The translations under genes were made by a program, and so were the position numbers. Positions 1 to 59,927 of a stretch of DNA of 64,000 nt are shown here, piece after piece. The DNA is from Cloeon dipterum. Lineage: Eukaryota; Arthropoda; Insecta; Ephemeroptera; Baetidae. The notes beneath the pieces were generated by a model. It did no database searches and had not been told where the DNA came from. It saw nothing but the letters and a program-made list of their open reading frames with translations. The stretch spans positions 11,708,501-11,772,500 of the forward strand of contig NC_088787.1 in NCBI RefSeq assembly GCF_949628265.1. The letters are read 5' to 3'. How positions within the stretch are numbered: the first letter of the stretch is position 1; each line of letters begins with the position of its first letter.

Positions 1-3000
1 GCGCGCACTTTATATCGTGTAAAGGACTGAATAAAAGATGATAACGCAGTACGCAGAGCCGGAAAAAAGCAGCGCTTTTCGCACGCCAACCTTCGGATTT
101 GCCAGGCTGGCTGCGTGAAGAATTCCTACTTTACCTACATTTTCCGATTGTGTGCGGTGGTTGATGTGTGCAGCACAATTTCTTTCTCAGAAAAATGTGA
201 ATGGAGAGCGTACAAAGAGTATCGGAGCTCCAGCTTTGAATTCGAATTAATAAAAGAGCAAAGTTCTACTTTACTCGCAGTTCATCTTATTGGCAAATCT
301 AAACTCACTTTTTCCTTTCGCGAAATGAAAAATCTAATGAATAAAAAGTTCCAACAACTATTCTTTGCTGCGTGAAAAGAAATTCTCCGAGCGGGATTCG
401 TTTTAATAAAAGAGCGAATTCCGATTCGAAGCAGCCAGTTAATCTGTTGTCGATTGAATAATATTCGCCGTGCCACTAATTGAGAGGAAATGTCGAACAA
501 TAGCGTCCAATGCGATAATGCCCGGCGAATCGCGTCTCCGACGCCGGGGTGCACGTTTAAAACTTTCCGATTAAATCACCCACAAAGCAGGCGGACCAAG
601 TTATATGTTCTCGCTAAAATCGATGCACGAGCAGTCCTTTCAATAATTCACGTCACTCGAATCGGCAGCGGCGGCGGGCCATTGTGTTTGAGTTCGCGCC
701 GAGTGATGAGATTTTGCATAGGCAACCAGCTTTACACACCAACCCACCCACCCACTCAAACGCACGTTTGTTTCCAAGTCTGGGTTCGCCGCACTTGCGA
801 TAAAATGTGTTATTATTTGGTTAGGTTCTCTTGGAGAGGCAACATGTTGAACGTGGCTCGAATGAGGAAGCAGGCTTCAGTCGATTCTGCCACGGCACTA
901 CATCTTCCGGCCCCATAAAAACCGGCTTCGGGGCGTCTTGCCCACTTTGAGAGCAATGACTAGCAATTAGAGCCCTCGGAAGCTCAAAAAATCACGTGAA
1001 AAAATATTTAATAATAAATTCTTGAAGTTGTATAGCTGCATATTTTGAAGAAACGTGGAAAAACAATTTTTTTAAATAAAAATCTTTGCTGACGTTTCCG
1101 CGGCGAATGTCTGGACTGATATTTTGGTTAAAAGAACGTCTCTGAAGAAGTTTCTGATCACACCAATCGATTCTTGAAGGTCGAATTAGGTAAAGTGGAT
1201 ATTTTTCCGACCAAAGAGTCCAGCGCGACGTGTGTAGCACAAGTAGAACTTTTTTCCCGCCAAAACAATATGAACCTATATATGCGAGAGTTGCACATGC
1301 ATCAGAGCTGGCTGGATCCAACAATGAAGTCATTCATATACAGGCGGTCTCTCTGCAAGTGCTCAAACCAGCTCTGACGCATGCTTAGTTCTCGCATTCA
1401 TTTTGTTTTTGGCGGGAAAAAAAGTTCTCACGTTGCGTTGGACTTTTTGGTCGGAAAAAATATACGCTTTACCTTTTTAGACCATCAAGAATCGATTGGT
1501 GTGGTCAGAAACTTCGTCAAAGACGGTCTTTAAGCACAATAAAAGAAATCATTTTTAGAGTACAATGAACAAACTGAAGGATTGAGTCTAAACTCTCAGC
1601 AGGAGTAGCTTAAAATCTAAAATAACCACTGGTGCCAATCTATTGACGGCTTCAAACACCAAAAACTTTCGCAACTGCTGATTTCTTTGATGATTTTAGG
1701 CTGCCAAAGTTTAAACAGCTTTTGTTTCAAACTCCTCTAGTGCATATATTTATTCCAAAATGTCGATATTTTACGCTCGGCGTGGCTGGGTTGGTTTTAT
1801 TATTCACAATTCACGTTGCGGGTGTCCTAAGGGCGCAGAAAGCCTCAAAATAGCAAAGCTGCCGAGCATTATTAGTGGAAGCTAAGCAGCTTGGGGGTTT
1901 AATCGCACGGATTGGTGGGCCCTTGGAGCTTTGCCAGAGACAGGCAGACGACTGCTGACAAATCCATTATCAACAGATGAGTCTTGTTGAGCCTGTGCTA
2001 TCGAGCCGCCTTTTCGCTTTACCTTCCTGCCTCCTCCGACAACATTCCACACTTGGCTGCTTGCAATGCTCGCGGTTCTGCTCACAACATTGCCTATACC
2101 ACACAACTTGCCGCTCTTCTGCGGGATCAATATGTTCACGGGCGACGACAGCGTTTTGCATTTAGAGGACAGGCACGCTCACCCACCCACCCACCCTGCC
2201 TGCTCGCTCGCTCGCTCGCTCGCTCACTGGCCCATGGAGCAAGGCATTATAATCTGCTAATTTTGTTTATCCGCGCGCGGTCAATTAAACACAACAAACA
2301 GCAGTATAGTGGCAAGTGTCGGCAGGGCGGATTAATCTGCGGGTTGACGCCGCCGAGCATTATACATGCCATTACTGCCGTGTTCTGCCAATTTAATCAA
2401 ATGGCCGGGCGAAACCAAATCTCTCGCAACTCCCGAAGAGAAGCAGAAAAATTCGAGCGACCTACTTTCCGCGACATCGATACAAGGCTGCACACTCACT
2501 GTCGTCATATTTCAGGAGTGAATGAACGCTATTCCTGGGTGAATTGCGAGCCGCAATCCGACGAGTTACAGCGAAAAAAGCTCGAGGAGGAGAAGAGAAT
2601 ACGGGACAATCAGAGAGCGTGTGGGGCTGTGCAACATATATATATATATTACACTGCACGAAAAAGAGTGAGAGAGATCGAGGGAACAGAGGGAAAGGAC
2701 ACGGCGAGAGCAGATCGCGTCACTTGCACTGATTGCGAAATGCAAAATGCAGAGCAGGCCGACTAGGCCGAGGGGAGCTCTGCAAGTAGTCGGATCAAAT
2801 CAGTTGAGCGCACGATGAATATTTTACTTGGCTAGAGGGGCACGCCGAGCACGAAGGCATCGGGAGAAAGAGCCATCGCCGTGCATTGAGGCCGCCGCCG
2901 CCGCCTCATCCATCCATCCATCCATCCTGCTTCTCCTGCTCATTCAAAAGACATTTGCCGACCATTTTCATAATAGATGAGACACTGGCTTGATAAAAGT

Positions 3001-3695
3001 CTGCACTGTAATACAATCCCCATTGTGAGTCTGGCGGGTCATTTGCTTTGAAGTGCGAACACGACGCTGTACCCGTCTGCCGGCCGCCGAATCGTACGAG
3101 TTGCACTCGAATTTCCTACCGGCAGAGGAAGAAAAAATCGCCGGGCTGCGGGCGCCAGTAGTGGTCTCCCTGCGCTCGCTAATGCAAATCTTCGCGGAAG
3201 CCAAAGGGGGGCGCCGCGTGTTTAATTTGGTTGCGGGATCAAAGGCCGGCCGACGGACAAAGAAAGCGCTTTTGTGTAAAGAAATGCGCGAGCGCGCGCT
3301 CACGGATTAAATACATGTGCTGTGTGTGCGTGTGTATATTCATTGACAGGGTGAATCTCAAAGTGACAATGTGCGGCGTGTGCGCACACAACCAGTATAT
3401 TTCTCTTTTCTTTGTCTTTGGCGAGAGAGACAGAGAGAGAGCGCGCACGGCTTTTAAGAGAGCTTTTAGCAAACGTCTCGAGGGAGTCGCAAATAGCGCG
3501 CGCGCTCCAACAATTGAAAGTCATTATCGCACACAAACCCTTTTCTTGCACCGTGAAATGCGCTGTTTGTATCTCTCTCTTTTCCAGCAGCGGGCTCGTT
3601 ACGTGCTTTATTATTCATTGCGATTTTCAGCTGTTTGTTTTGTAATAAGAGAGAGTAGCAGAGAATATAACGGGGTGTGCTCTGGCTTGTTGCAG
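1..3695. other. Region upstream of the muscarinic receptor exon; no confident gene
   Basis: No open frame here shows a recognisable protein family. The receptor exon at 3696 needs at least one upstream exon supplying the initiator Met, so part of this stretch is probably intron or 5'UTR, but I cannot place that exon. Visible content is low-complexity DNA (CGCT repeats near 2202-2226, CATC repeats near 2908-2926, short AT and GA runs near 2635-2650 and 3424-3440) and the dispersed hairpin repeat at about 1030-1700. Confidence 0.6.
1030..1700. repeat. Dispersed repeat with an internal foldback (arms about 1129-1311 and 1368-1531)
   Basis: The segment 1129-1311 reads as an imperfect reverse complement of 1368-1531, around a loop of roughly 55 nt. 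Shared blocks include caccaatcgattcttga, ttttccgaccaaa and cccgccaaaa. The flanks outside the hairpin (1080-1110 and 1575-1690) match a second locus at 13530-13775 on the same strand, where the hairpin is absent. This is the pattern of a dispersed, probably non-autonomous element. I see no coding capacity and no certain target-site duplication. Confidence 0.65.
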
Positions 3696-5973
3696 GAAGT
3701 TGCAGAAGGAGAAGGAACGGCTGTGTCGATTCGCCTACCAGAAGCTGCTGGCGACGACCGAGTGCGTCAGCGTGGACGACTCGTCGCCCAGCTGGCAGGC
3801 GAGCATTGCTGACTTGGCGGCCAACGTGTCGGCCAACGACAGCCTGGGCGGCAACGTGACCGAGGCGCCGTCGACCGCCAAGGACCTGGCGGTGCTGCCG
3901 CCGTTCGAGCTGTGGCAGACCATCTTGATCGCCATCTGCCTGTCCATCTGCATTCTGCTGACCGTCGGCGGCAACGTGCTGGTTTTGCTGGCGTTCATCG
4001 TCGACCGCACCATCCGCCAGCCGTCCAACTACTTCATCGCCTCGCTGGCAGCCACCGACATGCTCATCGGCACCGTCTCCATGCCCTTCTACACGGTGTA
4101 CGTGTTGATGGGCTACTGGGACCTGGGCCCGCTGCTGTGTGACCTCTGGCTCTCGGTGGACTACACCGTGTGCCTCGTCTCGCAGTACACCGTCTTGCTC
4201 ATCACCATCGACCGCTTCTGCTCGGTCAAGATCGCCGCCAAGTACCGCAGCTGGCGCACCAAGAACAAGGTCATCTGGATGGTGACCATCACGTGGGTCA
4301 TCCCGGCGCTGCTCTTCTTCATCAGCATCTTCGGTTGGGAGCACTTCGTCGGCTACCGCGACCTCGCACCCGGCCAGTGCGCAGTGCAGTTCCTAAAGGA
4401 CCCGGTCTTCAACACGGCCCTCATCATCGGCTACTACTGGACCACGCTGATCGTACTCTTCATCCTCTACGGCGGCATCTACAAGACGGCCTACGACATG
4501 CAGAAGAAATCCGAGGCCAAACAGCGCAAGATGCAGTCCATGGTGGCGCTCGGCGTCGGCGCCCTCTCCGGCCTCGGCGGCATGGGCGGCATGGGTGGTC
4601 CACGGCCGGCCATGAACATCTCCAAGACTCAGAGCACCTTGCTCAGCCAGGACAAGCCCAAGCCGGTCACCGCCGGCGGCACGACGCCGGGACAGCCGCC
4701 CGGCGCCGGGCAGGGAGGCGGCGCCGGCCTCGCCCCGGCCGCCGCTGCCAACTCAGGCGACTCCACTTCCAGCCAAAAGACCTCCAAGGCCACCACCGAG
4801 ACGACCAGCTTCTCGGCCGACAAGAGGCGGAATAATGACAACAACGGCGGGCAGGCCAACAACGGCGAGAACGAGAAGTCGGAGCGCTCCAGCAGTCCGG
4901 CCTTCGACTCGGACGACGACGACAGCGGTGGCGACGCGCCCAAGAAGCGTCCGTCGGTGTGTCCCTCGATCGCGGCTCTCTTCCAGAGCATCGCGCCCAG
5001 CAACGGCGCCCCACCGAAATTCGACTCGCTGCTGGCGCCGCCGTCTGCCGCCACGCACCACTCGATGATGGCGTCGCCACCGTCGAAGAGTCCGACGCCA
5101 CCGCCGCCCCAGTCGGTGACACCCCCCACTCCGCAGCCTCCACCGGTGCCGCCGCGCAATCCGCCGCCGCCGTCTCAGGCACAGACTGACAAGAGCGGCG
5201 CCGACTCCGAGGACAACTCGTGCGCGTCGACGGTGCCGCCCAGCTACGATGCCATCACCGGCCTCGACAACGCTGACCTGCGCTACATGGACGAGAGCTC
5301 GGTGTCGGTGGCGACGCCGCGCGTCGAGTCGCCGCAGACGTGCTCGCAGATGACCGACTCCTCGCCGGCGCACACGTCACTGCTGCAGACGGCGCTGATC
5401 CGGGCCGCCTCGGCGCAGTCGGACACCAAGCCCAAGGTGGACACGACCGTCGTGGCGCAGGCCGACAACAAGCCACCGGTGACGGTGGCGGCGGCCAAGC
5501 AGCCGGACCTGCCGCAGCCGTCGCCGCCCTCGGCCGCCAAGGCGGAGAACCTCATCGAGCCGGCGCCGCTGGGCAAGTCTCGCGGCACTGACGCCGCGGC
5601 CCCAGGCCGCGGTGGCGGCGGCTCCACCCGACGCGACCTGGTCAAGTCGATCGGCAAGCGGCTGCGCGGCAAGCGGCGCAGAAAAGGCGCCGAGCGGCAA
5701 AAGTCCAAGTCGGAGAACCGCGCGCGCAAGGCGTTCCGCACCATCTCCTTCATCCTGGGCTGCTTCGTCATGTGCTGGACGCCGTACCACATCCTGGCGC
5801 TGGTCGAGGGCTTCTGCTCGGAGCCACCGTGCACCAACGCGCACCTCTACATGTTCTCCTACTTCCTGTGCTACGCCAACAGCCCGATGAACCCGTTCTG
5901 CTACGCACTCGCCAACCAGCAGTTCAAGAAGACGTTCACGCGCCTGCTCAAGGGCGACTTCCACATGACTTAG
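3696..5973 (+). CDS. mAChR-B: B-type muscarinic acetylcholine receptor (class A GPCR), 5'-partial terminal exon
   Basis: This exon encodes all seven transmembrane helices of a rhodopsin-family GPCR, so the protein acts at the plasma membrane as a metabotropic acetylcholine receptor. Counting from the Leu codon at 3700: TM1 about 72-100, TM2 110-137, TM3 147-170 with the amine-binding Asp (D154) and a DRF in place of DRY, TM4 190-212, TM5 237-262, then a third loop of about 420 residues rich in Pro, Ser and Ala, TM6 with CWTPYH near 700, TM7 with NPFCY, and a short tail ending FHMT. Two NxS/T sites (NVS, NVT) precede TM1, and Cys147/Cys227 fit the extracellular disulfide. The TM5-loop segment ([20 protein letters not shown]) is what I recognise from the insect B subtype rather than the A or vertebrate M types. 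The frame has no upstream ATG. A tgttgcag acceptor ends at 3695, so the N-terminus comes from an earlier exon not identified. The stop is TAG at 5971-5973. Coding DNA is strikingly GC-rich against its surroundings. Confidence 0.9.
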
Positions 5974-28737: not shown

Positions 28738-28983
28738 TTAAAAGGGCGATTTTAGTGTGCGCGTGGTAGCGGCGGCTGCACATGCATGCACGCACTTGCA
28801 TGGAATGTGTAAGTTAAGTGTAAGTCTCTTGCTGCTGCTGCTCGCCAGTCCTGCTACCACCGCCCGTCGCCCCTCCCCCGCTCCACAACAGAGGCAGGCA
28901 GCAGGCAATCAGGCATTCCATGCAAGTGCGTGCATGCATGTGCAGCCGCCGCTACCACGCGCACACTAAAATCGCCCTTTTAA
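28738..28983. repeat. Perfect 70-bp inverted repeat with 106-bp spacer
   Basis: Positions 28738-28807 and 28914-28983 are exact reverse complements. The arm starts ttaaaagggcgatttta and includes the alternating-purine-pyrimidine stretch catgcatgcacgcac, so it could form a strong cruciform or hairpin. The GC-rich spacer has no coding signal. No target duplication is evident at the arm ends. Confidence 0.8.
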
Positions 28984-43821: not shown

Positions 43822-43974
43822 GCAAACTTCAACCCATATTTCAACTATATAAAATTCTAGAAAAGGTCAATTGTATATAAAAATAAGCTATATAAATACA
43901 GTCAGGAATTAGTCCAATGGATCTGCAAGGGATACAACATAAAGATTATTTTTTCCCAAAACTACCACAATTTT

Positions 43975-45597
43975 TTAAAGCTTACAAATGAGCTCGCCGA
44001 TAAAGGATGGGTTTGTCTCCCAATTCGCCTCAATCTTGATGATCAGCCTGCTAATTCGGTTGGCCAGATTCTGTCTCTCAGCGTCGCTCATTCGCAGCAT
44101 GTTGGCTGTATTTTCCCAATAAAATGGAAGGAAGCCTTTTGTTAGGTACTCCTTGATTCCTTTCAGCAGCTGCACAAGCGCAATGAGATTTTAGTTACTG
44201 TAAAAATGATCTTACGGATCTTACTATTAAGAATGTAATGTCAGTCCGATCATTTTCACTCAGCCTGCCTTCCTCTTTCATCCACAGAGCTGCTGATTTA
44301 ATGGCATAGCTGTAAAGACTCTTCCAGTCTTGTGTGTCCCTCAGTTTCTGTAATATGTATTAATATTTAAATTAATGAACAGAAATTCTAAGAAAAAATG
44401 AAAAACTTATCTCGAACAAATTATTACCTTGATAAGTTTAATAGCTGGTTTGATGGTACCATAGTCCCTCAGGATATCCTTTTCAAACTCGTAGAAGGAT
44501 ACCCTCCAGGCATCTTTGATTTCTGTCTGTCCTTTCAGTGGCTTGGGCACGATGAACCACTCCTGCACATCATTTAATGAAACGTAAGCAACAAATGGAT
44601 TATTTTCTTAATTTACCCTATTCATGGGCCTTGGAGTCCTGATTGGGCTTGGTGGAACTGAAGTGAAGCCGAAAACAGGCACCACATCGATGGACAACTT
44701 GCCCAAGCAAAGAGTCATCGCCGGCCCTGATTTGCGGACGATGATTTGCTGTTTAGAATTGGATTAGTGCACCGGCTACTAAAATTTTATCCAAGAATCT
44801 CACCGCATCAGCCGGTTTGTCGACGTTGTAATCATTGGCAAACTTGCTCACGATGCCTTCCATCCAGTCCCGTACTTTGTTGGACAGCAAATTTCCTGAC
44901 TCATCGGTCCACTTCACCAGCTCCCTAAATTTAACTTTCAAACTTCCAATTTCCCTTTTATAAATGATTCACTTGTAAACTGGTTTCCATTTTGGATCAA
45001 CCTCGATGGTGTCCAGAGCATTTTTGAAGTTTTTGATTGTCACAAAACCGGGGTTGTCACTTCTCGGAGAAATCTGCAAATTATTACTCATATTTATCAC
45101 AGGTTCTTGGCAATTGGCTTGATTTAAATGAAATTTTAATGTACCACTGTCTCTTGCCAGTAAATTAAAACAAAAATTCATATTTTACCTCGACCAGGTC
45201 GCTCTTGAAGGGAAAACGGAAGACGACGTTCAAATCAAACTCATCTGGATGAGAAATCTTCAGCCCTTCATAAAAGCTGCCAGTCCACGCGATTTTTTGG
45301 TAGATCAACTCGAAGGCTTTGCTTTTCTTCTTTAGACCTTCCACCAAATCCTTTTTAACCTGTGAGCATTAAAAATAAAAATAAAATACTTTATATTGCT
45401 TTATATTTTGTTACCAGGCCGTCGATGAAACGATTGGTGACCCTGATTTCGTCTTCCTTCAGCTTTAGTTTGCGAAGGACGCTCTCCAGAACTTGGACGA
45501 TCGTGCCTGGATACTTGCGAGATATTTCCAGTCTGCCCAAATCGGGTAGAGCAGGGGCCTGTCGGACCTCAGCAGGTGCGGCGGCTGTGTTGCCCAT
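43975..45597 (-). CDS. cGAS-like receptor (Mab-21 / nucleotidyltransferase family), copy A
   Basis: Exons (high to low): 45597-45415 (start exon, whose acceptor is at 45602), 45359-45189, 45073-44973, 44924-44804, 44748-44617, 44562-44428, 44347-44225, 44169-43975. They total 1161 nt, or 386 residues, the normal cGLR size. Characterised insect cGLRs bind dsRNA and make cyclic GMP-AMP isomers that activate STING. The nucleotidyltransferase motif is complete: GSFYEGLKISHPDEFDLNVV gives the GS loop and the E-x-D pair. LGKLSIDVVPVFGF supplies the third acidic residue. The C-terminal Mab-21 lobe follows (DAWRVSFYEFEKDIL, LYSYAIKSAALWM, LPFYWENTANML). I see no vertebrate cGAS-type zinc ribbon, as expected for cGLRs. 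An upstream signal-peptide exon (45728-45893) can splice in frame to 45602, giving a 443-residue form. The promoter is probably at 46551-46579. Confidence 0.9.
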
Positions 45598-45727
45598 GAT
45601 GTCTGTTGGTGAGTGCAAAAATTGAATTAAATTTCAAAAAACACTAAATCATAAAATATTTTGGCTGGATCAGTGATTTTCTTTTGATTTGACTCAAAAA
45701 TGTAATATTTTTCTTCCTAATATTTAC

Positions 45728-45893
45728 CGCAGAGCACCTCGTTAGTCTCAACCTTGCAAAACGGATTTAATTTTCCATGGTGCTTTTTCGCCTTTTTCTT
45801 ATTTCTCTTTGCGTCGGCTAGAGCCGGCAACTCAAACGCCGCTAGCAACAGCAGACCGGCGAGTATAATAACGTTTAAAGAGAATAAATTCAT
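45728..45893 (-). CDS. Signal-peptide exon upstream of cGLR A (secreted N-terminus or small secreted peptide)
   Basis: The exon opens with ATG and encodes MNLFSLNVIILAGLLLLAAF, then ELPALADA, a textbook signal peptide with a likely cleavage after ADA. A basic stretch (KRNKKKAKKHHG) and a Cys-flanked tail (FCKVETNEVLC) follow. It is 166 nt and ends at donor CTCTGCG|GTAAAT. Splicing to the acceptor at 45602 continues in frame as Cys-Asp-Ile-Met-Gly, i.e. into the cGLR start exon. Unspliced, the frame stops after GKY, giving a 57-residue peptide. An acceptor-like ttactcttag lies 16 nt upstream of the ATG, allowing an earlier noncoding exon. The near-identical arrangement in copy C argues that it is coding. 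Which product is made is not decidable here. Confidence 0.65.
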
Positions 45894-46550
45894 AATCCTT
45901 CTTTCTGCCTAAGAGTAATTTTGCTTGGGACGCAGTTACGTCGCTATTTAAATGCAGACTGCTTATCTAATGCGTTTACCCAAAATATTTGGTACAGCAC
46001 CAGTCGATTTAAAGTCCACCAATATCGCGAAAAAATTAGCAACTGCCCCTCCACCGTGATAATAATGGAGAACCAGTTCAGAGCGGGAGAGTTTAAGTCT
46101 TTTGAGACAGTTCAAGGTCACAGTGACTTATAAGCGAGCGCAAATTTTGTGCTATAATTTACAAAACAAGTTTGTTTGTGACCCATTAAAACATAATCGT
46201 ATGCACTCCCTGCTCTTTAGAAATTTGATGATTTTTTTCGAAAAAAGTCAATGGTTTTTAAGATTTCTAACTGCCGCAAGTGAGGTTACAATAATTCCAA
46301 TTGAGGAAGACAGATATATGTGCGCATTTTATTTTAAACGAAATGGTCGCATCTTATCAGTGGCTCAAACTTTGATAATGGTACTTACGATCAAATTTCG
46401 TACCAAAATTATACATTTAAATCAAGTGTATGGTACGCACAACACGTACTTGTTAAAAATTGCTTGAATATTTTGCTTACCGTTTGCTAAAAATTTTCCT
46501 TGCCCGGTTTCCTTTCACACTTTAAGAGATATGCACAGTGGCACTTCAGT

Positions 46551-47219: not shown

Positions 47220-48924
47220 TCATCTTCCTTCAAGCTTACAAATAAGCTCCCCAATGTAGGATGGGTTTGACACCCAATTTTCCTCGATTTTTATGATCAG
47301 CCTGGCAATCCTGTTTGCCAGATTCTTTCTCTCAACATCGTTCATTCGCAGCATGTTAGCTCTCTTATCCCAGTAGAATGGAAGAAAGCTCGTGTCCAAG
47401 TACTTTTGGATACCTTTCAGCAGCTATGCAATCACGTGAAAATTATTTTGCTTCAGATAAAAATTGCTGATGTACTTTCAAGAATGTAATGTCAATTTTC
47501 TCATCTGCGCTCAGCTCGCCCTTCTCTTTCATCCACAGAGCAGCTGATTTAATGGCATAGCTGTATAGACTCTTCCAGTCTTGCGTGTCCCTCAGTTTCT
47601 GTAATATTATTCCAATTAATTATTTTGTTAGTTTTTCTTATTAACAAACATTCTCAAAAATTCCAATGAAACAATAAGCTTGAACATGGTATTACCTTGA
47701 TAAGCTTAATCGCTGGTTTGATGGTTCCATAGTCCCTCAGGATATCCTTTTCAAACTCGTAGAAGGATACCCTCCAGGCATCTTTGATGTCTGTCTGTCC
47801 TTTCAGTGGCTTGGGCACGATGAACCACTCCTACACACACATCAATTAATGAAAGGTAAGCAACAAATGGATTCTTTTATTTAATTTACCCTATTCATGG
47901 GCTTTGGAACCCTGATTGGGCTTGGTGGAGGCGAGGTGAAGCCAAAAACGGGCACCACGTCAATGGACAACTTGCCCAACCAAAGAGTCATTGCCGGTCC
48001 TGATTTGCGAACGATGATTTTCTATACAGAACGAAATCATGAGACAAATTTTTTAAAGTTATGTAAATTCAATAAATCACACCTTATTTTCTGGTTTGCC
48101 CACATTGTACTCGTTCGAAAACTTGACAACAATGCTTTCCATCCATTCGCGGACTTTGTTTGTCAGCAAATTGCCCGAGTCGTCAGCCCACTTCAGTAAC
48201 TCCCTACCTTTCCTGATTAGAATTTTAATCTTCTTTAGCAGAAACTTTTACGTGTAAGCCGGTCTCCATTTTGGATCAGCTTCAATGGTGTCCAGCGCCT
48301 TTTTGAAATTTTTAATCGTCACGAAGCCAGGGACGTCATTTCGCGGAGAAATCTGCAAATTGTTATATTGCTTTTTTTGAGGGTTTGCGCTTGTCCGGGA
48401 TAGATCTGAGCTTCCTGGTGGTCTTGGGTACCAGTTCTTTGGTCCTGTCTTAAAGACAATCATCTTTCACACTGCTGATAAAAATCTAGTTTAGTAAATC
48501 TAAAATTATAGTTACTTTGATGAGGTCGCTCTTAAAAGGGAAGCGAAGGACGATGTTCAAATCAAACTCGTCAGGATGAGAAATCTTCAGCCCTTCGTAA
48601 GAGCTGCCAGTCCAAACGATTTTTTGGTAGATCAACTCGAAGGCCTTGCTTTTTTTCTTTAGGCCCTCAATCAAATCCTTTTTAACCTGGCTCACAATAA
48701 GAGATTCCATAATTAATTTCCACCGCCTAATTTAATATCATATATAATATTACCACTTCATCAATTAGGCTATTGGTATTCTTGATCTCGTCCTCCTTAA
48801 GTTTCAGTTTGCCGTTCACGTTTTCCAGAACTTGGAAGATCGTGCCTGGGTACTTCTTGCGAGATATTTCCAGTCTCCCAATGTCGGGAAGTGAAGGACC
48901 ACCGGAGGCAGCGGGTTTGCTCAT
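47220..48924 (-). CDS. cGAS-like receptor, copy B
   Basis: Exons (high to low): 48924-48754, 48686-48516, 48352-48252, 48203-48083, 48021-47890, 47830-47696, 47598-47476, 47423-47220. They total 1158 nt, or 385 residues. Exon lengths 171, 101, 121, 132, 135 and 123 are identical to copies A and C. The catalytic set is kept: GSSYEGLKISHPDEFDLNIV and LGKLSIDVVPVFGF. The start differs from A and C (MSKPAASGGPSLPD), and the C-terminus is extended past the A stop (CKLEGR). The frame is open throughout and all splice sites are usable, so it is expected to be functional and cytosolic. The upstream signal-peptide exon found in A and C is decayed here. A poly(A) signal lies at 47114-47119 on the minus strand. 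Exons 3-6 and their introns look nearly identical to copy C. Confidence 0.9.
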
Positions 48925-49140
48925 CGTGTCTGTTGGTGAGTAAAAAAAATCCATTCCATTGTGAATAGAGAATCGTGCGTTTGCGGTCGTTCCAAATCAA
49001 TTATTTATAATACAATATAAATTAGATTTTTTAAATATTTTTTTACATGTTTACATGCGCATGATTATAGTTTGTTAACGTGTCATCCCTATTGGGAGAC
49101 TAAAACTGCATGATTAAAAATAAAAGTCAACATCCAAGCA

Positions 49141-49235
49141 GCACCTTTGTTACTCTGAACCTTGATAACTTCGCGACTGCTTATTGCAGCTCAAATACCA
49201 ATTTGCAGAAGACTGGCGAGAATAAGTACGTTTAC
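49141..49235 (-). pseudogene. Decayed signal-peptide exon of unit B
   Basis: On the plus strand, gcacctttgttactctgaaccttg corresponds to gcacctcgttagtctcaaccttg of copy A, and agactggcgagaataagtacgttta to agaccggcgagtataataacgttta. About 70 nt of the middle is lost, and the nearest ATG frame hits a stop after eight codons. The exon therefore cannot encode the signal peptide present in units A and C. Confidence 0.6.
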
Positions 49236-49963
49236 TGAACAAACTTTAAATCTGCCATCGTCCATGCCAGATGATATTAAAATGCGTCACACACGCTTCG
49301 AATGTCAAAAAACTGCTCATTCATAATGCCCAGGAGCAAAATTGAAATGAGTCCCACACACACACATCGCCAAAATGTGAGTCATGTGTGTGACTGTGCC
49401 CCACCACATGGTAGGAGGTGGAGTCAAAGCAGGAGCAGGAAAAGATGACTCTTTTGTTTTGAGACAAAGATACTCTCTGCATCTCGCTTCCCTCTGCTGA
49501 ATGAGTACCATTCACAAATGCACACAGATACAGATGAAACGGATCGAACTCTATGTTACACATTAATATCTATTTTGCTCTGTTTCTGCTGTCGTTATAT
49601 TTGCCTTGAATTATTCCCTCTAATGCATTTAAAAATGTGAAAATTTTAAATTGAATAAATTCGTGATTTGCTAATGATTGCTTCATTTCTGCGGTGGAAA
49701 ATTAGAGTTTTATATTAACTTAATGAATATAATAGTTCGAATTTCACACCTGGAAATGACAAGTATCCTTTTTTAATGTATTTTAAAATTAATTTTTCAC
49801 AAATGTTTAGGATTTGCTCGAATATTTCAATTATATAAAGTTATCTGCACGATAAACAAGAAGTTCAATTGCTACGAATTTTTCCTACCGTTTGTAAATA
49901 AAATTTCTTCTGCTTGTTTCTTGATCTCCACACGTTTGAAGCTAAGCACAATAACACGAAGAG

Positions 49964-52927: not shown

Positions 52928-54955
52928 ACGGGTAGGGCGTTACGCATAACGGGTAGGGCGTTACGCGTAACGGGGAGGGCGTAACGCGTCACGAATAACG
53001 GGTAGGGCGTTACGCATAACGGGTAGGGCGTTACGCATAACGGGTAGGGCGTTACGCGTCACAAATAACGGGTAAGGCGTTACGCGTAACGGGGAGGGCG
53101 TTACGTTACTCGCGTAACGGGGAGGGCGTTACGCGTCTAGCGTAACGGGTAGGGCGTTACGCATAACGGGGAGGGCGTTACGCGTCACGAATAACGGGTA
53201 GGGCGTTACGCATAACGGGTAGGGCGTTACGCATAACGGGTAGGGCGTTACGCGTCACGAAAACGGGTAAGGCGTTACGCGTAACGGGGAGGGCGTTACG
53301 CATAACGGGTAGGGCGTTACGCGTAACGGGTAGGGCGTTACGCATAACGGGTAGGGCGTTACGCGTAACGGGGAGGGCGTTACGCGTCACGAATAACGGG
53401 TAGGGCGTTACGCATAACGGGGAGGGCGTTACGATACTCGCGTAACGGCTAGGGCGTTACGCATAACGGGGAGGGCGTTACGCGTCTAGCGTAACGGCTA
53501 GGGCGTTACGCATAACGGGGAGGGCGTTACGCGTCTAGCGTAACGGGTAGGGCGTCACGCGTAACGGGGAGGGCGTTACGCGTCACGAATACCGGGTAGG
53601 GCGTTACGCATAACGGGGAGGGCGTTACGCGTCTAGCGTAACGGGTTGGGCGTTACGCATAACGGGGAGGGCGTTACGATACTCGCGTAACGGCTAGGGC
53701 GTTACGCATAACGGGGAGGGCGTTACGCGTCTAGCGTAACGGGTAGGGCGTCACGCATAACGGTGAGGGCGTTACGCGTCTCGCGTAACGGGTAGGGCGT
53801 TACGCGTAACGGGTAGGGCGTTACGCGTCTCGCGTAACGGGTAGGGCGTTACGCATAACGGGGAGTGTGTTACGTTACTCGCGTAACGGGTAGGGCGTTA
53901 CGCATAACGGGGAGGGCGTTACGCGTCTAGCGTAACGGGTAGGGCGTTACGCATAACGGGGAGGGCGTTACGCGTCTCGCGTAACGGGTAGGGCGTTACG
54001 CATAACGGGGAGTGTGTTACGTTACTCGCGTAACGGGTAGGGCGTTACGCATAACGGGGAGGGCGTTACGCGTAACGGGGAGGGCGTTACGCATAACGGG
54101 TAGGGCGTTACGCGTAACAGGGAGGGCGTTACGCGTAACGGGGAGGGCGTTACGCGTAACGGGTAGGGCGTTACGCAAAACGGGTAGGGCGTTACGCGTC
54201 ACGAATAACGGGTAAGGCGTTACGCGTAACGGGGAGGGCGTTACGTTACTCGCGTAACGGCTAGGGCGTTACGCATAACGGGGAGGGCGTTACGCGTCTA
54301 GCGTAACGGGTAGGGCGTTACGCATAACGGGGAGGGCGTTACGCGTCTCGCGTAACGGGTAGGGCGTTACGCATAACGGGGAGGGTGTTACGTTACTCGC
54401 GTAACGGGTAGGGCGTTACGCATAACGGGGAGGGCGTTACGCGTCTAGCGTAACGGGTAGGGCGTTACGCATAACGGGGAGGGCGTTACGCGTCTCGCGT
54501 AACGGGTAGGGCGTTACGCATAACGGGGAGGGCGTTACGCGTCTCGCGTAACGGGTAGGGCGTAACGCATAACGGGGAGGGCGTTACGCGTAACGGGTAG
54601 GGCGTTACGCGTAACGGGTAGGGCGTTACGCGTCACGAATAACGGGTAGAGCGTTACGCGTAACGGGTAGGGCGTTACGCGTAACGGGTAGGGCGTTACG
54701 CGTCACGAATAACGGGTAGAGCGTTACGCGTAACGGGTAGGGCGTTACGCGTAACGGGTAGGGCGTTACGCGTCACGAATAACGGGTAGAGCGTTACGCG
54801 TAACGGGTAGGGCGTTACGCGTCACAAATAACAGGTAGGGCGTTACACGTAACGGGGAGGGCGTTACGCGTTACGCATAACGGGTAAGGCGTTACGCGTA
54901 ACGGGGAGGGCGTTACGCGTAACGGGTAGGGCGTTACGCGTCACGAATAACGCGT
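52928..54955. repeat. 2-kb minisatellite, 21-bp unit
   Basis: About 95 tandem units of the type cgttacgcgtaacgggtaggg make up the whole stretch, with variants carrying gcgtctagcg, acgatactcg or cgtcacgaat linkers that form longer-period blocks (clearest at 54600-54800). The unit includes the 14-bp palindrome cgttacgcgtaacg and several CpGs. Because 21 is a multiple of 3, spurious open frames appear on both strands (VTGRALR and TRNALPV repeats). I do not regard these as genes. It abuts a zinc-finger exon at its right end. Confidence 0.95.
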
Positions 54956-54960
54956 GAGGA

Positions 54961-55862
54961 TTTTGGACGGCTGGCCCCAAATGGCGGCTGCAATCAACCT
55001 TGCGGAAAATTGCTCGATTGCGGCCACCAATGCAAGGCCGTGTGCCACTTGGACACCACGTGTTCCAAGATTGACTGCAATGGGCCTTGTTTCCGGCTCT
55101 GCAATGCAAGACAGCACCGCTGCCCTTCTGAGTGTCACGTCAAATGCGAATCAAACTGCATGGTCAAGGTCAGCAAATACCTGAAGTGCAGAGTGCACAC
55201 CATTGAGGTTGAGTGCAAGATAGACGTCTGGACCGTGAAATGCACAAATCCATGCACAAAGCTGAAAAAAGGGTGTCGTTCGAACCACAAATGTCCAAAG
55301 CTGTGCCACGAAGAATGCGACCTTTGTTTGAAGAAGGTAAGTTTTGTTAATTTTTAGCTGATTTAAAATGATTGCTAGATCAACGTGTTTTATAACCTTA
55401 ATCTCAATAATAAAAAATGTCTATTATTTCATATTTTTCATACTCTTTTGAAAATTAAAAAACTTGCAAAATACGCAATCAAATATTTGGTGTGTTTAGA
55501 GCACAGTCAAGCTTGCATGTGGACACTTGGTTACGGTTATCTGCTGCAAGCCAATCCCTACTTGCCTAGAGAAATTTAGGGGGCCGAAACATAAAGGCTT
55601 TTTACGAAAAATACACCAAGGGCGAGGAACAAGTGAGAGTCTGATTAATTAATTTTGATCTTATAAGGACTAATTGAACTCTTTAAAGGTGATTGTCGTG
55701 AGAACCTGTGGTCACATCCTGTTCAAGAAATGCTACTAATACGTTCCAGATGGTTCCTACTGCTTTGAAATTTGTTCAAAGAAACTGGACTGCGGGCATG
55801 TGTGTCAAAAGTACTGCTACAGAAGTTGTAGGCACTGCAGACCGTGCATGCTCTCTTCAATA
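54961..55862 (+). pseudogene. ZNFX1-like NFX1 zinc-finger fragment
   Basis: A Cys/His-rich frame runs to a donor at about 55335 (AAGAAG|GTAAGT), with GGCNQPCGKLLDCGHQCKAV, CNGPCFRLC, HRCPSECHVKC and HKCPKLCHEECDLC. It continues as weaker pieces at 55497-55640 (LACGH) and 55690-55862 (TCGH, LDCGHVCQKYCYRSCRHC). The last has an in-frame TAA near 55738. It aligns with the first finger block after the helicase in ZNFX1, the same region as the finger exon at 22401-22653, so it is a second, paralogous copy. The helicase part is absent because the minisatellite begins right at its left edge. A broken gene is most likely. The first exon alone is intact. Confidence 0.7.
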
Positions 55863-57249: not shown

Positions 57250-58939
57250 TTAAAGCTTACAAATAAGCTCCCCAATGTAGGATGGGTTCGACACCCAATT
57301 TTCCTCGATTTTGATGATCAGCCTGGCAATCCTGTTGGCCAGATTCTTTCTCTCAACGTCGTTCATTCGCAGCATGTTGGCTCTTTTCTCCCAGTAGAAT
57401 GGAAGAAAGCCTTTGTCCAAATACGTTTGGATACCTTTCAGCAGCTATGCAATCACGTGAAAATTATTTTGTTTCTAATAACAATTCGTGATACATACTT
57501 TCAAGAATGTAATGTCAATTTTCTCATTTCCACTTATACCGCCCTCCTCTTTCATCCACAGAGCGGCTGATTTAATGGCATAGCTGTATAGACTTTTCCA
57601 GTCTTGCGTGTCCCTCAGTTTCTAAAATATCATTCCAATCATTTTGTTATAGTATTTTTTTCTAATTAACAGATATTCTCAAAAAACTCGAATGTAAAAA
57701 AATTGAACAAAATATTACCTTGATAAGCTTAATCGCTGGTTTGATGGTTCCATAGTCCCTCAGGATATCCTTTTCAAACTCGTAGAAGGATACCCTCCAG
57801 GCATCTTTGATGTCTGTCTGTCCTTTCAGTGGCTTGGGCACGATGAACCACTCCTACACACACATCAATTAATGAAAGGTAAGCAACAAATGGATTCTTT
57901 TATTTAATTTACCCTATTCATGGGCTTTGGAACCCTGATTGGGCTTGGTGGAGGCGAGGTAAAGCCAAAAACGGGCACCACGTCAATGGACAACTTGCCC
58001 AACCAAAGAGTCATTGCCGGTCCTGATTTGCGAACGATGATTTTCTATACAGAACGAAATCATGAGACAAATTTTTTAAAGTTATGTAAATTCAATAAAT
58101 CACACCTTATTTTCTGGTTTGCCCACATTGTACTCGTTGGAAAACTTGACAACAATGCTTTCCATCCATTCGCGGACTTTGTTTGTCAGCAAATTGCCCG
58201 AGTCGTCAGCCCACTTCAGTAACTCCCTACCTTTCCTGATTAGAATTTTAATCTTCTTTAGCAGAAACTTTTACGTGTAAGCCGGTCTCCATTTTGGATC
58301 AGCTTCAATGGTGTCCAGCGCCTTTTTGAAATTTTTAATCGTCACGAAGCCAGGGACGTCATTTCGCGGAGAAATCTGCAAATTGTTATATTGCTTTTTT
58401 ACAGGGTTTGCGCCTATCTGGTGATAAATTTCTTTGGTCCTGTCTAAAGGACGATCATTCTTTCTCACTGCTGATAAAAATCTAGTTTAGTAAATCTAAA
58501 ATTATAGTTACTTTGATGAGGTCGCTCTTAAAAGGGAAGCGAAGGACGATGTTCAAATCAAACTCGTCAGGATGAGAAATCTTCAGCCCTTCATAAGAGC
58601 TGCCAGTCCAAACGATTTTTTGGTAGATCAACTCGAAGGCCTTGCTTTTTTTCTTTAGGCCCTCAATCAAATCCTTTTTAACCTGGCCCACAATAAGAGA
58701 TTCCATAATAATTAATTTCCACCGCCTAATTTTAATATCACATTTAATTTTACCAGTTCATCAATTAGTCTATTGGTATTCTTGATCTCGTCCTCCTTAA
58801 GTTTCAGTTGGCCGTTCACGTTTTCCAGGACTTGGACGATCGTGCCTGGGTACTTCTTGCGAGATATTTCCAGCTTCCCAATGTCGGGTAGAGCAGGGGC
58901 CTGTTGGACCTCAGCAGGTGCGGCGGCTGTGTTGCCCAT
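57250..58939 (-). CDS. cGAS-like receptor, copy C
   Basis: Exons (high to low): 58939-58754 (acceptor at 58944), 58682-58512, 58375-58275, 58226-58106, 58044-57913, 57853-57719, 57621-57499, 57444-57250, in all 1164 nt or 387 residues. The motif GSSYEGLKISHPDEFDLNIV and the distal Asp in LGKLSIDVVPVFGF are intact. The first 19 residues match copy A (MGNTAAAPAEV-x-QAPALPD), whereas the rest of exon 1 and exons 2-6 are closest to copy B, giving a mosaic. The stop (CKL-stop) is in the same place as A. An upstream signal-peptide exon (59081-59246) is in splice phase with 58944. A poly(A) signal lies at 57124-57129 (minus). Expected to be functional. Confidence 0.9.
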
Positions 58940-59080
58940 GATGTCTGTTGGTGAGTGTGAAAATAATTAAATATTATATTTCAGAAAATACTAAAAATTG
59001 TTAAATATATTGGCAGGGTCAGTGGTGTTTTGATTTGACTCAAAAATTTAGTATGTATTATGTATCTCCCAAATATTTAC

Positions 59081-59246
59081 CGCAGATGAGCACCTCATGA
59101 GTCTCAACCTTGCATAACGGACTTAATCCATGGTGCTTTTCCCCTTTTTCTAAGTTTCTCTTTGCGTCAGCTGGTGCCGGCAACTCTAACGCCGCTAGCA
59201 ACAGCAGAGCGGTGAAATAAGAACGTTTAGAGAAAATAAAATGCAT
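59081..59246 (-). CDS. Signal-peptide exon upstream of cGLR C
   Basis: It starts with ATG and reads MHFIFSKRSYFTALLLLAAL, then ELPAPADA, KRN, and further on HHG and CKVETHEVLIC. The length is 166 nt, exactly as in unit A, and the donor is the same (CTGCG|GTAAAT). Joined to the acceptor at 58944 it enters the cGLR start exon in frame. Read through, it stops after GKYLGDT (62 residues). Signal peptide, ADA cleavage site, HHG and the CKVET-x-EVL core are conserved against A despite many changes in the core of the hydrophobic segment, which suggests selection on protein. Confidence 0.65.
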
Positions 59247-59927
59247 CGATCCTGCTTCCTGCTGGGATCTGCACTGCCCCTCCATAGTGATGATAATGGA
59301 GCAGTTCAAAGTGGGAGAGTTAAAGTCTTTTGAGACAGTTCAAGGTCACAGTGACTATTATGCGAGCGCAAATTTAGTACTTCTTTAATCAATTAATAAT
59401 AAGTTTGTTTAAGACTTATTAAGACATATGATCTTATGATTTTTCTACTCTTTTGAAATTTGATGATTTTGCGAAAAAAGGACAAAATTGATTTTTTTTA
59501 TAACTTGGCAAAACTTCCGCAGAGGAAGTCTCGGGATTATTCCTAGTGAGCAGGAAGACATATTATATAATGTAAGCCATATTTTATTTTAAACGAAATA
59601 GTCGAATCTTATCGGTGACTTTGATAATGGTACTTAAACAATCAAATTTCATACCGAATTTAAACATTTAAATCAAATATTGTATTGTATTGTGTGGTAC
59701 GTTTATAATTTTAATTAAAATAATTTGTTCCAATATTTAGCCAAATGTTTTCGATTATTTCCATTTTTTCAAGTTATTCGCATGAAGAGCATTATAAATT
59801 TAAGAAGTTCAATTTCTACGAATTTTTTCCTACCGTGTTAGTTAATAAAATTTCTTCGGCTTGTTTCTTGATCTTCCACTCGTTTGAAGTAGAGTCGTTT
59901 AAAGCTATGCACAATAGCACGGCAGAG

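Follow-up and report, generated by a model that had tools for sequence, protein, structure and literature searches.

Insect cGAS-like receptors (cGLRs) such as Drosophila cGLR1/2 and the Tribolium cGLR are known as cytosolic nucleic-acid sensors, and the available text of three papers describes cGLRs as sensing nucleic acid in the cytosol (PMC10855445, PMC9127187, PMC12817933). The cGLR genes of Cloeon dipterum analysed here resemble them in the Mab-21 nucleotidyltransferase domain followed by a helical C-terminal domain, in the GS motif and in three acidic positions, and a STING domain is also encoded in the C. dipterum genome. Two of the gene copies, A and C, differ from the known insect cGLRs by a candidate leader, a short hydrophobic open reading frame in the first intron. 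Among the matches listed in our searches of open-access PMC (titles and abstract starts) there was no cGLR with a signal peptide or an alternative 5' exon, in agreement with an earlier, sequence-only reading of this DNA, which had called a secreted cGLR made by an optional exon undescribed. The term 'signal peptide' has zero occurrences in the available main text of a cGLR survey (PMC10732462) and appears once each in the available text of PMC9127187 and PMC12817933, both times in a reference title. Our preferred reading is that the cGLR gene uses the leader as an alternative 5' coding exon, and more likely as a first exon than as a cassette, which would give an ER-targeted cGLR; this reading is tentative, with a probability of about 0.42.

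The window, meaning the whole stretch of 64,000 nucleotides that was analysed, is part of contig C2 of the 190-Mb genome and contains three tandem cGLR genes, A, B and C, all on the minus strand. Gene models built from the exon boundaries common to the copies are open throughout and encode 387 (A), 385 (B) and 387 (C) residues. The whole protein of copy A was scanned against Pfam and matched Mab-21 (Pfam: PF03281) with 87.2 bits and Mab-21_C (Pfam: PF20266) with 33.1 bits, the cut-off being 24.1 for both, while B and C were placed by homology throughout. The top match of copy A among solved structures is chain A of 7lt2 (E 2.3e-32), which we take to be the Tribolium cGLR; we call the genes insect-type because of this cGLR match and from general background. 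The GS motif and the three acidic active-site positions, identified by our own reading of a cGAS alignment, are found in A, B and C alike. By its domains and active-site motifs copy A qualifies as a cGLR, with nucleic-acid-triggered synthesis of a cyclic dinucleotide as the predicted activity.

The first coding exon of copy A (45415..45602, minus strand) has a phase 1 acceptor reading ccaacag|AC ATC ATG and the normal start codon lies at 45597 (ATC ATG G). The other eight coding exons lie within 43909..45359, at 45359-45189, 45073-44973, 44924-44804, 44748-44617, 44562-44428, 44347-44225, 44169-43986 and 43922-43909. In the model of copy C the first coding exon is at 58754..58944 on the minus strand. 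A 5'UTR exon preceded by a TATA-like sequence and ending at a donor is present in all three copies, with its last base at 46481 (A), 49889 (B) and 59834 (C). In A this exon (46481..46533, minus strand, start approximate) has TATAAA just upstream, no internal ATG and the donor ACG|GTAAGC, so that the upstream donor of the sequence-only reading exists but ends the exon at 46481 and not at 46478. The exon of C aligns with that of A at 72 of 90 sites and with that of B at 91 of 101.

At the other end of the genes, the last coding exon of copy A has 14 nt (43909-43922), its acceptor AG is lost in B and C, and both of these end a few codons inside the former intron at places matching 43909-43922 of A. 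The N-termini of the short forms read MGNTAAA in A (45597) and C (58939), with Gly at position 2, and MSKPAA in B; a lipid-modified N-terminus is conceivable for the short forms of A and C. A genome search for relatives of the cGLR gave 24 exon matches, 20 in the cluster of the window and 4 at one place on contig C4, and it found a full Mab-21 domain in a single open frame elsewhere on C4. The former place (L003, about 1800-3807) holds a fourth, distantly related cGLR-like gene whose first coding exon is longer and rich in arginine. Its 5' end, read by eye with a provisional gene start, differs from that of the cluster genes, and no leader exon was seen there. The window also holds short repetitive ORFs on the minus strand that derive from tandem repeats (53178-53456, 54017-54268 and 54864-55139; RNALPVTRNALPVM...). 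They adjoin a cysteine-rich frame, presumably NFX1-like; 54923-55357 had no Pfam match at E 0.001.

The candidate leader exon observed earlier at copy A is present, with small corrections of coordinates. Its ORF (45728..45893, minus strand) has 166 nt, that is 55 codons plus 1 nt, and encodes MNLFSLNVIILAGLLLLAAFELPALADAKRNKKKAKKHHGKLNPFCKVETNEVLC plus one base; it is strongly hydrophobic with signal-peptidase-like sites. The donor reads GCG|GTAAATAT, with 45728 as the last exon base, and scores 8.49 in a matrix built from the donors of these same genes, a score reached or exceeded by 5 of the 19 distinct donors of the genes and by 1.5% of the 3180 GTs of the strand. When the leader is joined in silico to 45602, the frame continues as D-I-M-G-N into the cGLR, which adds 57 residues before the normal Met (55 exon codons, the junction Asp and Ile). 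ORF, donor and phase match to 45602 are thus present as noted before, and both the short and the long form are open, although with 387 and 444 residues rather than 386 and 443. Read unspliced, the frame runs to a stop at 45717 and is a complete ORF of 58 residues (MNLF...CGKY), one more than had been counted. Phase 1 is shared by only two of the nine cGLR A acceptors, 45602 and that of the last 14-nt exon; the phase match by itself is a 1-in-3 event.

The leader of copy A exceeds chance. We generated 4000 dinucleotide shuffles of intron 1 of copy A and scored leaders with a crude measure of our own rather than a trained predictor. An ATG ORF of at least 50 codons occurred in 32% of the shuffles, such an ORF with a leader-like start in 1.8%, and one with a leader mean hydropathy of at least 2.6 and a cleavage-type site in 0.45%; a weaker leader (at least 2.0) combined with an in-phase G|GTAA or G|GTGA donor occurred in 0.1%. 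On both strands of the whole window there are 134 ATG ORFs of at least 50 codons, of which 7 pass the weak leader test, and among these 7 the leader of A has the highest hydropathy. Another leader-like start (MCKLSVSLLLLLLASPATTA...) is found in a 54-codon ORF at 28805-28969 on the plus strand, which has no Pfam match at E 0.001.

Copy C carries a corresponding leader unit (59081..59246, minus strand) of 166 nt and phase 1, with a donor identical to that of A and a further in-frame ATG at 59285. In copy B, direct alignment revealed a relic (49186..49234, minus strand) as a 49-nt local match with score 44, against 40 for the best of 500 shuffles. It has an ATG at 49265 and a hydrophobic core which in the frame of A reads MDDGRFKVCSVNVLILASLLQIGI and is followed by a stop, so the leader of B is broken while its cGLR is still open. 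Given this relic in addition to the units of A and C, the leader seems to be at least as old as the cluster and to have been lost in B with the cGLR kept. Protein and DNA searches of the 190-Mb genome, in which only the best candidates were scored and which missed the relic in B, found the leader only in A and C.

The next question is whether the leader is maintained. Between A and C, 15 of 148 sites differ in the leader and 9 of 101 in a block further upstream (46145-46040). The adjoining introns differ at 71 of 402 sites, and introns 3-9 at 87 of 409. The divergence is lower than in the adjoining introns for the leader (P 0.034), for the block (P 0.033) and for both together (P 0.006). The two leaders are separated by two 3-nt indels and two cancelling single-base shifts, which leave the length of 166 nt unchanged, and the N-terminus of the C leader is frame-shifted over about ten codons relative to A and likewise relative to B. 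Neutral simulations, which took their indel lengths from the introns (20 of 62 are multiples of three), retained an open, in-phase and leader-like ORF in 1.3-8.7% of runs, depending on the setting. For the 41 codons that follow the cancelling shifts, the dN/dS of the leader is 0.5 (P 0.14 in neutral simulations), and an excess of differences at position 3 has P 0.11. The dN/dS is compatible with neutrality, and constraint on the frame is not distinguishable from it. Of the earlier description of the exon as conserved, the part that stands is that the 166-nt phase 1 unit also occurs in C; selection on its frame does not follow from these values.

Some of the similarity may have another source. 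The synonymous divergence between A and C is 0.24 in the leader and 0.59 in the whole cGLR, and the first 60 nt of exon 2 show 1 difference. The cGLR genes B and C (47220-48929 and 57250-58944) are 96-100% identical in several stretches of the body and about 80-90% identical elsewhere, a patchiness that suggests recent gene conversion. Because of the near-identity of B and C over much of the body and the single difference between A and C at the start of exon 2, the 5' region of A and C may also have been homogenised, with gene conversion accounting for part of its conservation. Since such an exchange may have taken place, the similarity of A and C is weak evidence of selection.

These observations bear on the strongest competing explanation, namely that the leader is a chance product or a decaying relic of a former transcript, perhaps of a lost gene, which sits without function in the intron of A and C through recent duplication or gene conversion. 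The dN/dS that is not below the neutral expectation, the broken leader of B, the signs of homogenisation between A and C and the failure to find further copies in the genome are all as expected of a relic. On the other hand, according to the neutral simulations a relic would seldom retain an open leader-like frame of matching phase in both copies, it would not be expected to diverge less than the adjoining introns, and it would hardly need a donor that is stronger than most of the known donors of these genes. We regard this explanation as a serious possibility, though not a probable one.

An independent small secreted peptide, made from the unspliced frame by a short gene within the first intron of the cGLR, is unlikely. 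A complete ORF with a stop is present in both copies, two cysteines are kept between A and C, and an ATG-poor stretch together with the conserved upstream block could be a promoter. Against this, the good donor lies ahead of the stop, and the stops themselves differ in position, with A ending in CGKY and C in CGKYLGDT. The net charge of the ORF is +7 in A and +1 in C, so the cationic character that had been attributed to such a peptide is not conserved. Pfam contributed no family above the cut-off (three matches for the peptide of A, all below it, and none for that of C). From the donor to 45602 in A, and over the corresponding part of C up to 58944, neither AATAAA nor ATTAAA occurs. There are only weak variants, two AAGAAA in A and two AATATA, one AATACA and one ACTAAA in C, so a separate short transcript would have no obvious end. 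That the leader acts as an upstream ORF or retained-intron product tuning cGLR translation without a functional leader protein is very improbable, because the spliced frame continues into the cGLR unlike that of a usual uORF and a hydrophobic leader would be unnecessary, even though the good context of the cGLR ATG (ATC ATG G) within the long form could yield the short form by leaky scanning.

Returning to the leader as a 5' coding exon of the cGLR, the region upstream of it is informative about the kind of exon. In copy A a stretch free of ATG (45894..46145, minus strand) extends from the block to the leader ATG and is a candidate promoter or 5'UTR of a leader transcript. Zero ATGs in these 252 nt are matched in 0.8% of shuffles, for an interval that was chosen afterwards, and the preceding 335 nt of the intron contain five. 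The shorter matching stretch of C has a sole ATG, which is in frame with the leader. The block at the beginning of the stretch (46145-46040) is 91% identical between A and C and was found only in these two copies in a search of the genome. A candidate counterpart in B (49466-49397; local match P 0.008, below the best of 500 shuffles) was rejected as too weak. The block contains TGACCTTGA in both A (at 46120) and C, which we take to resemble a nuclear-receptor site, and TATAAG at 46132 in A alone, with no counterpart in C.

Because of the ATG-free stretch in A, the solely in-frame ATG in C and the conserved block, we consider an alternative first exon under a separate promoter more likely than the cassette exon that had been proposed. 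Acceptor-like sites do lie ahead of the leader and make a cassette possible. They score 8.65 in A (45904) and 7.87 in C (59268), within the range of the known acceptors (-0.8 to 11.6), and are placed differently in the two copies. At A the sequence-only reading had used a slightly more distant acceptor; an acceptor-like site is found at 45908, but an exon start at 45904 scores best. The ATG-free stretch and the 91% identical block fit a first exon equally well or better than a cassette.

For the destination of the product, the leaders of A and C both have a hydrophobic core with small residues at -3/-1, and ALA|DA and ADA|KR are candidate cleavage sites. The charges flanking the core are +1 on the N-terminal and +7 on the C-terminal side in A, and +3 and +2 in C, so that the C-terminal flank minus the N-terminal flank is +6 in A and -1 in C. 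By the charge rule for signal anchors, an uncleaved leader of the A type would have a lumenal N-terminus and leave the cGLR facing the cytosol, the topology of P450-type anchors. The A leader, if uncleaved, thus also fits a reverse signal anchor that would hold the enzyme on the cytosolic face by STING, while the C leader resembles a standard signal peptide. The genome has two matches over the cut-off to the STING ligand-binding domain, and a form on the cytosolic face would therefore have a partner. Since the basic C-terminal flank of A also fits an anchor, 'secreted' is a weaker claim than 'ER-targeted'; the core and the -3/-1 sites of the proposed secreted or lumenal form are there, but secretion itself is only one of the possible outcomes. 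The lack of N-glycosylation sequons (none in any of the three copies, against an expectation of about 1.8; P about 0.14 for each copy) was considered as a hint on secretion and dropped as weak, given that the copies are not independent and leaderless B also has 0.

Under the preferred reading, a transcript from the proximal promoter would begin with the leader exon, 45728 would be spliced to 45602, and the fused leader would target the cGLR to the ER, whereas exon 1 spliced straight to 45602 would encode the usual cytosolic protein. If the leader were cleaved, at ALA|DA or ADA|KR, the cGLR would be lumenal or secreted; if it stayed uncleaved in copy A, its basic flank would favour a reverse signal anchor that keeps the enzyme at the cytosolic surface of the ER, close to STING, which resides there. 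The ORF, the donor, the phase, the open cGLR, the unit in C and the relic in B are seen in the DNA, and from them we infer transcription, splicing and targeting. With two copies in one genome as its evidence base, the sequence moderately supports a fusion of leader and sensor in two of the three copies.

A wider version of this, which we consider doubtful, is that one cGLR gene has two placements, with the distal promoter giving the cytosolic and the proximal promoter the ER-targeted form, and that this choice of compartment was lost in one duplicate. The proximal promoter would possibly be hormone-controlled through the conserved TGACCTTGA element, and the ER-targeted form would be anchored beside STING or would meet extracellular nucleic acid in the lumen or haemolymph. 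If true, location would be a regulated variable of the cGLR pathway, one enzyme being either cytosolic or sent into the secretory pathway, and the question would be whether the enzyme works beside STING on the ER or acts on extracellular nucleic acid.

Hydrophobic segments ahead of a Mab-21 fold have precedents. MiD49/51 and ITPRIP-type proteins are anchored in membranes by an N-terminal hydrophobic segment, which is a fixed part of the protein and not an optional exon. They resemble the proposed leader-cGLR fusion in having this segment before the Mab-21 fold. Both are listed as members of the Mab-21/cGLR superfamily in the available text of the cGLR survey (PMC10732462). On the extracellular side, the available text of PMC9663721 names secreted poxin/P26 as a possible degrader of extracellular 2'3'-cGAMP that needs study, so the insect pathway may have an extracellular side. 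A parallel to the proposed exon comes from MsrA/MsrB in mammals and Drosophila, for which the available text of PMC1431549 describes alternative first exons that change the compartment of the enzyme. In that case too, use of an optional 5' exon decides whether a targeting peptide is present, with the difference that the MsrA leader is mitochondrial. A first exon that changes the compartment of an enzyme is thus a known mechanism and, as far as our literature searches reach, its use on a cGLR would be new.
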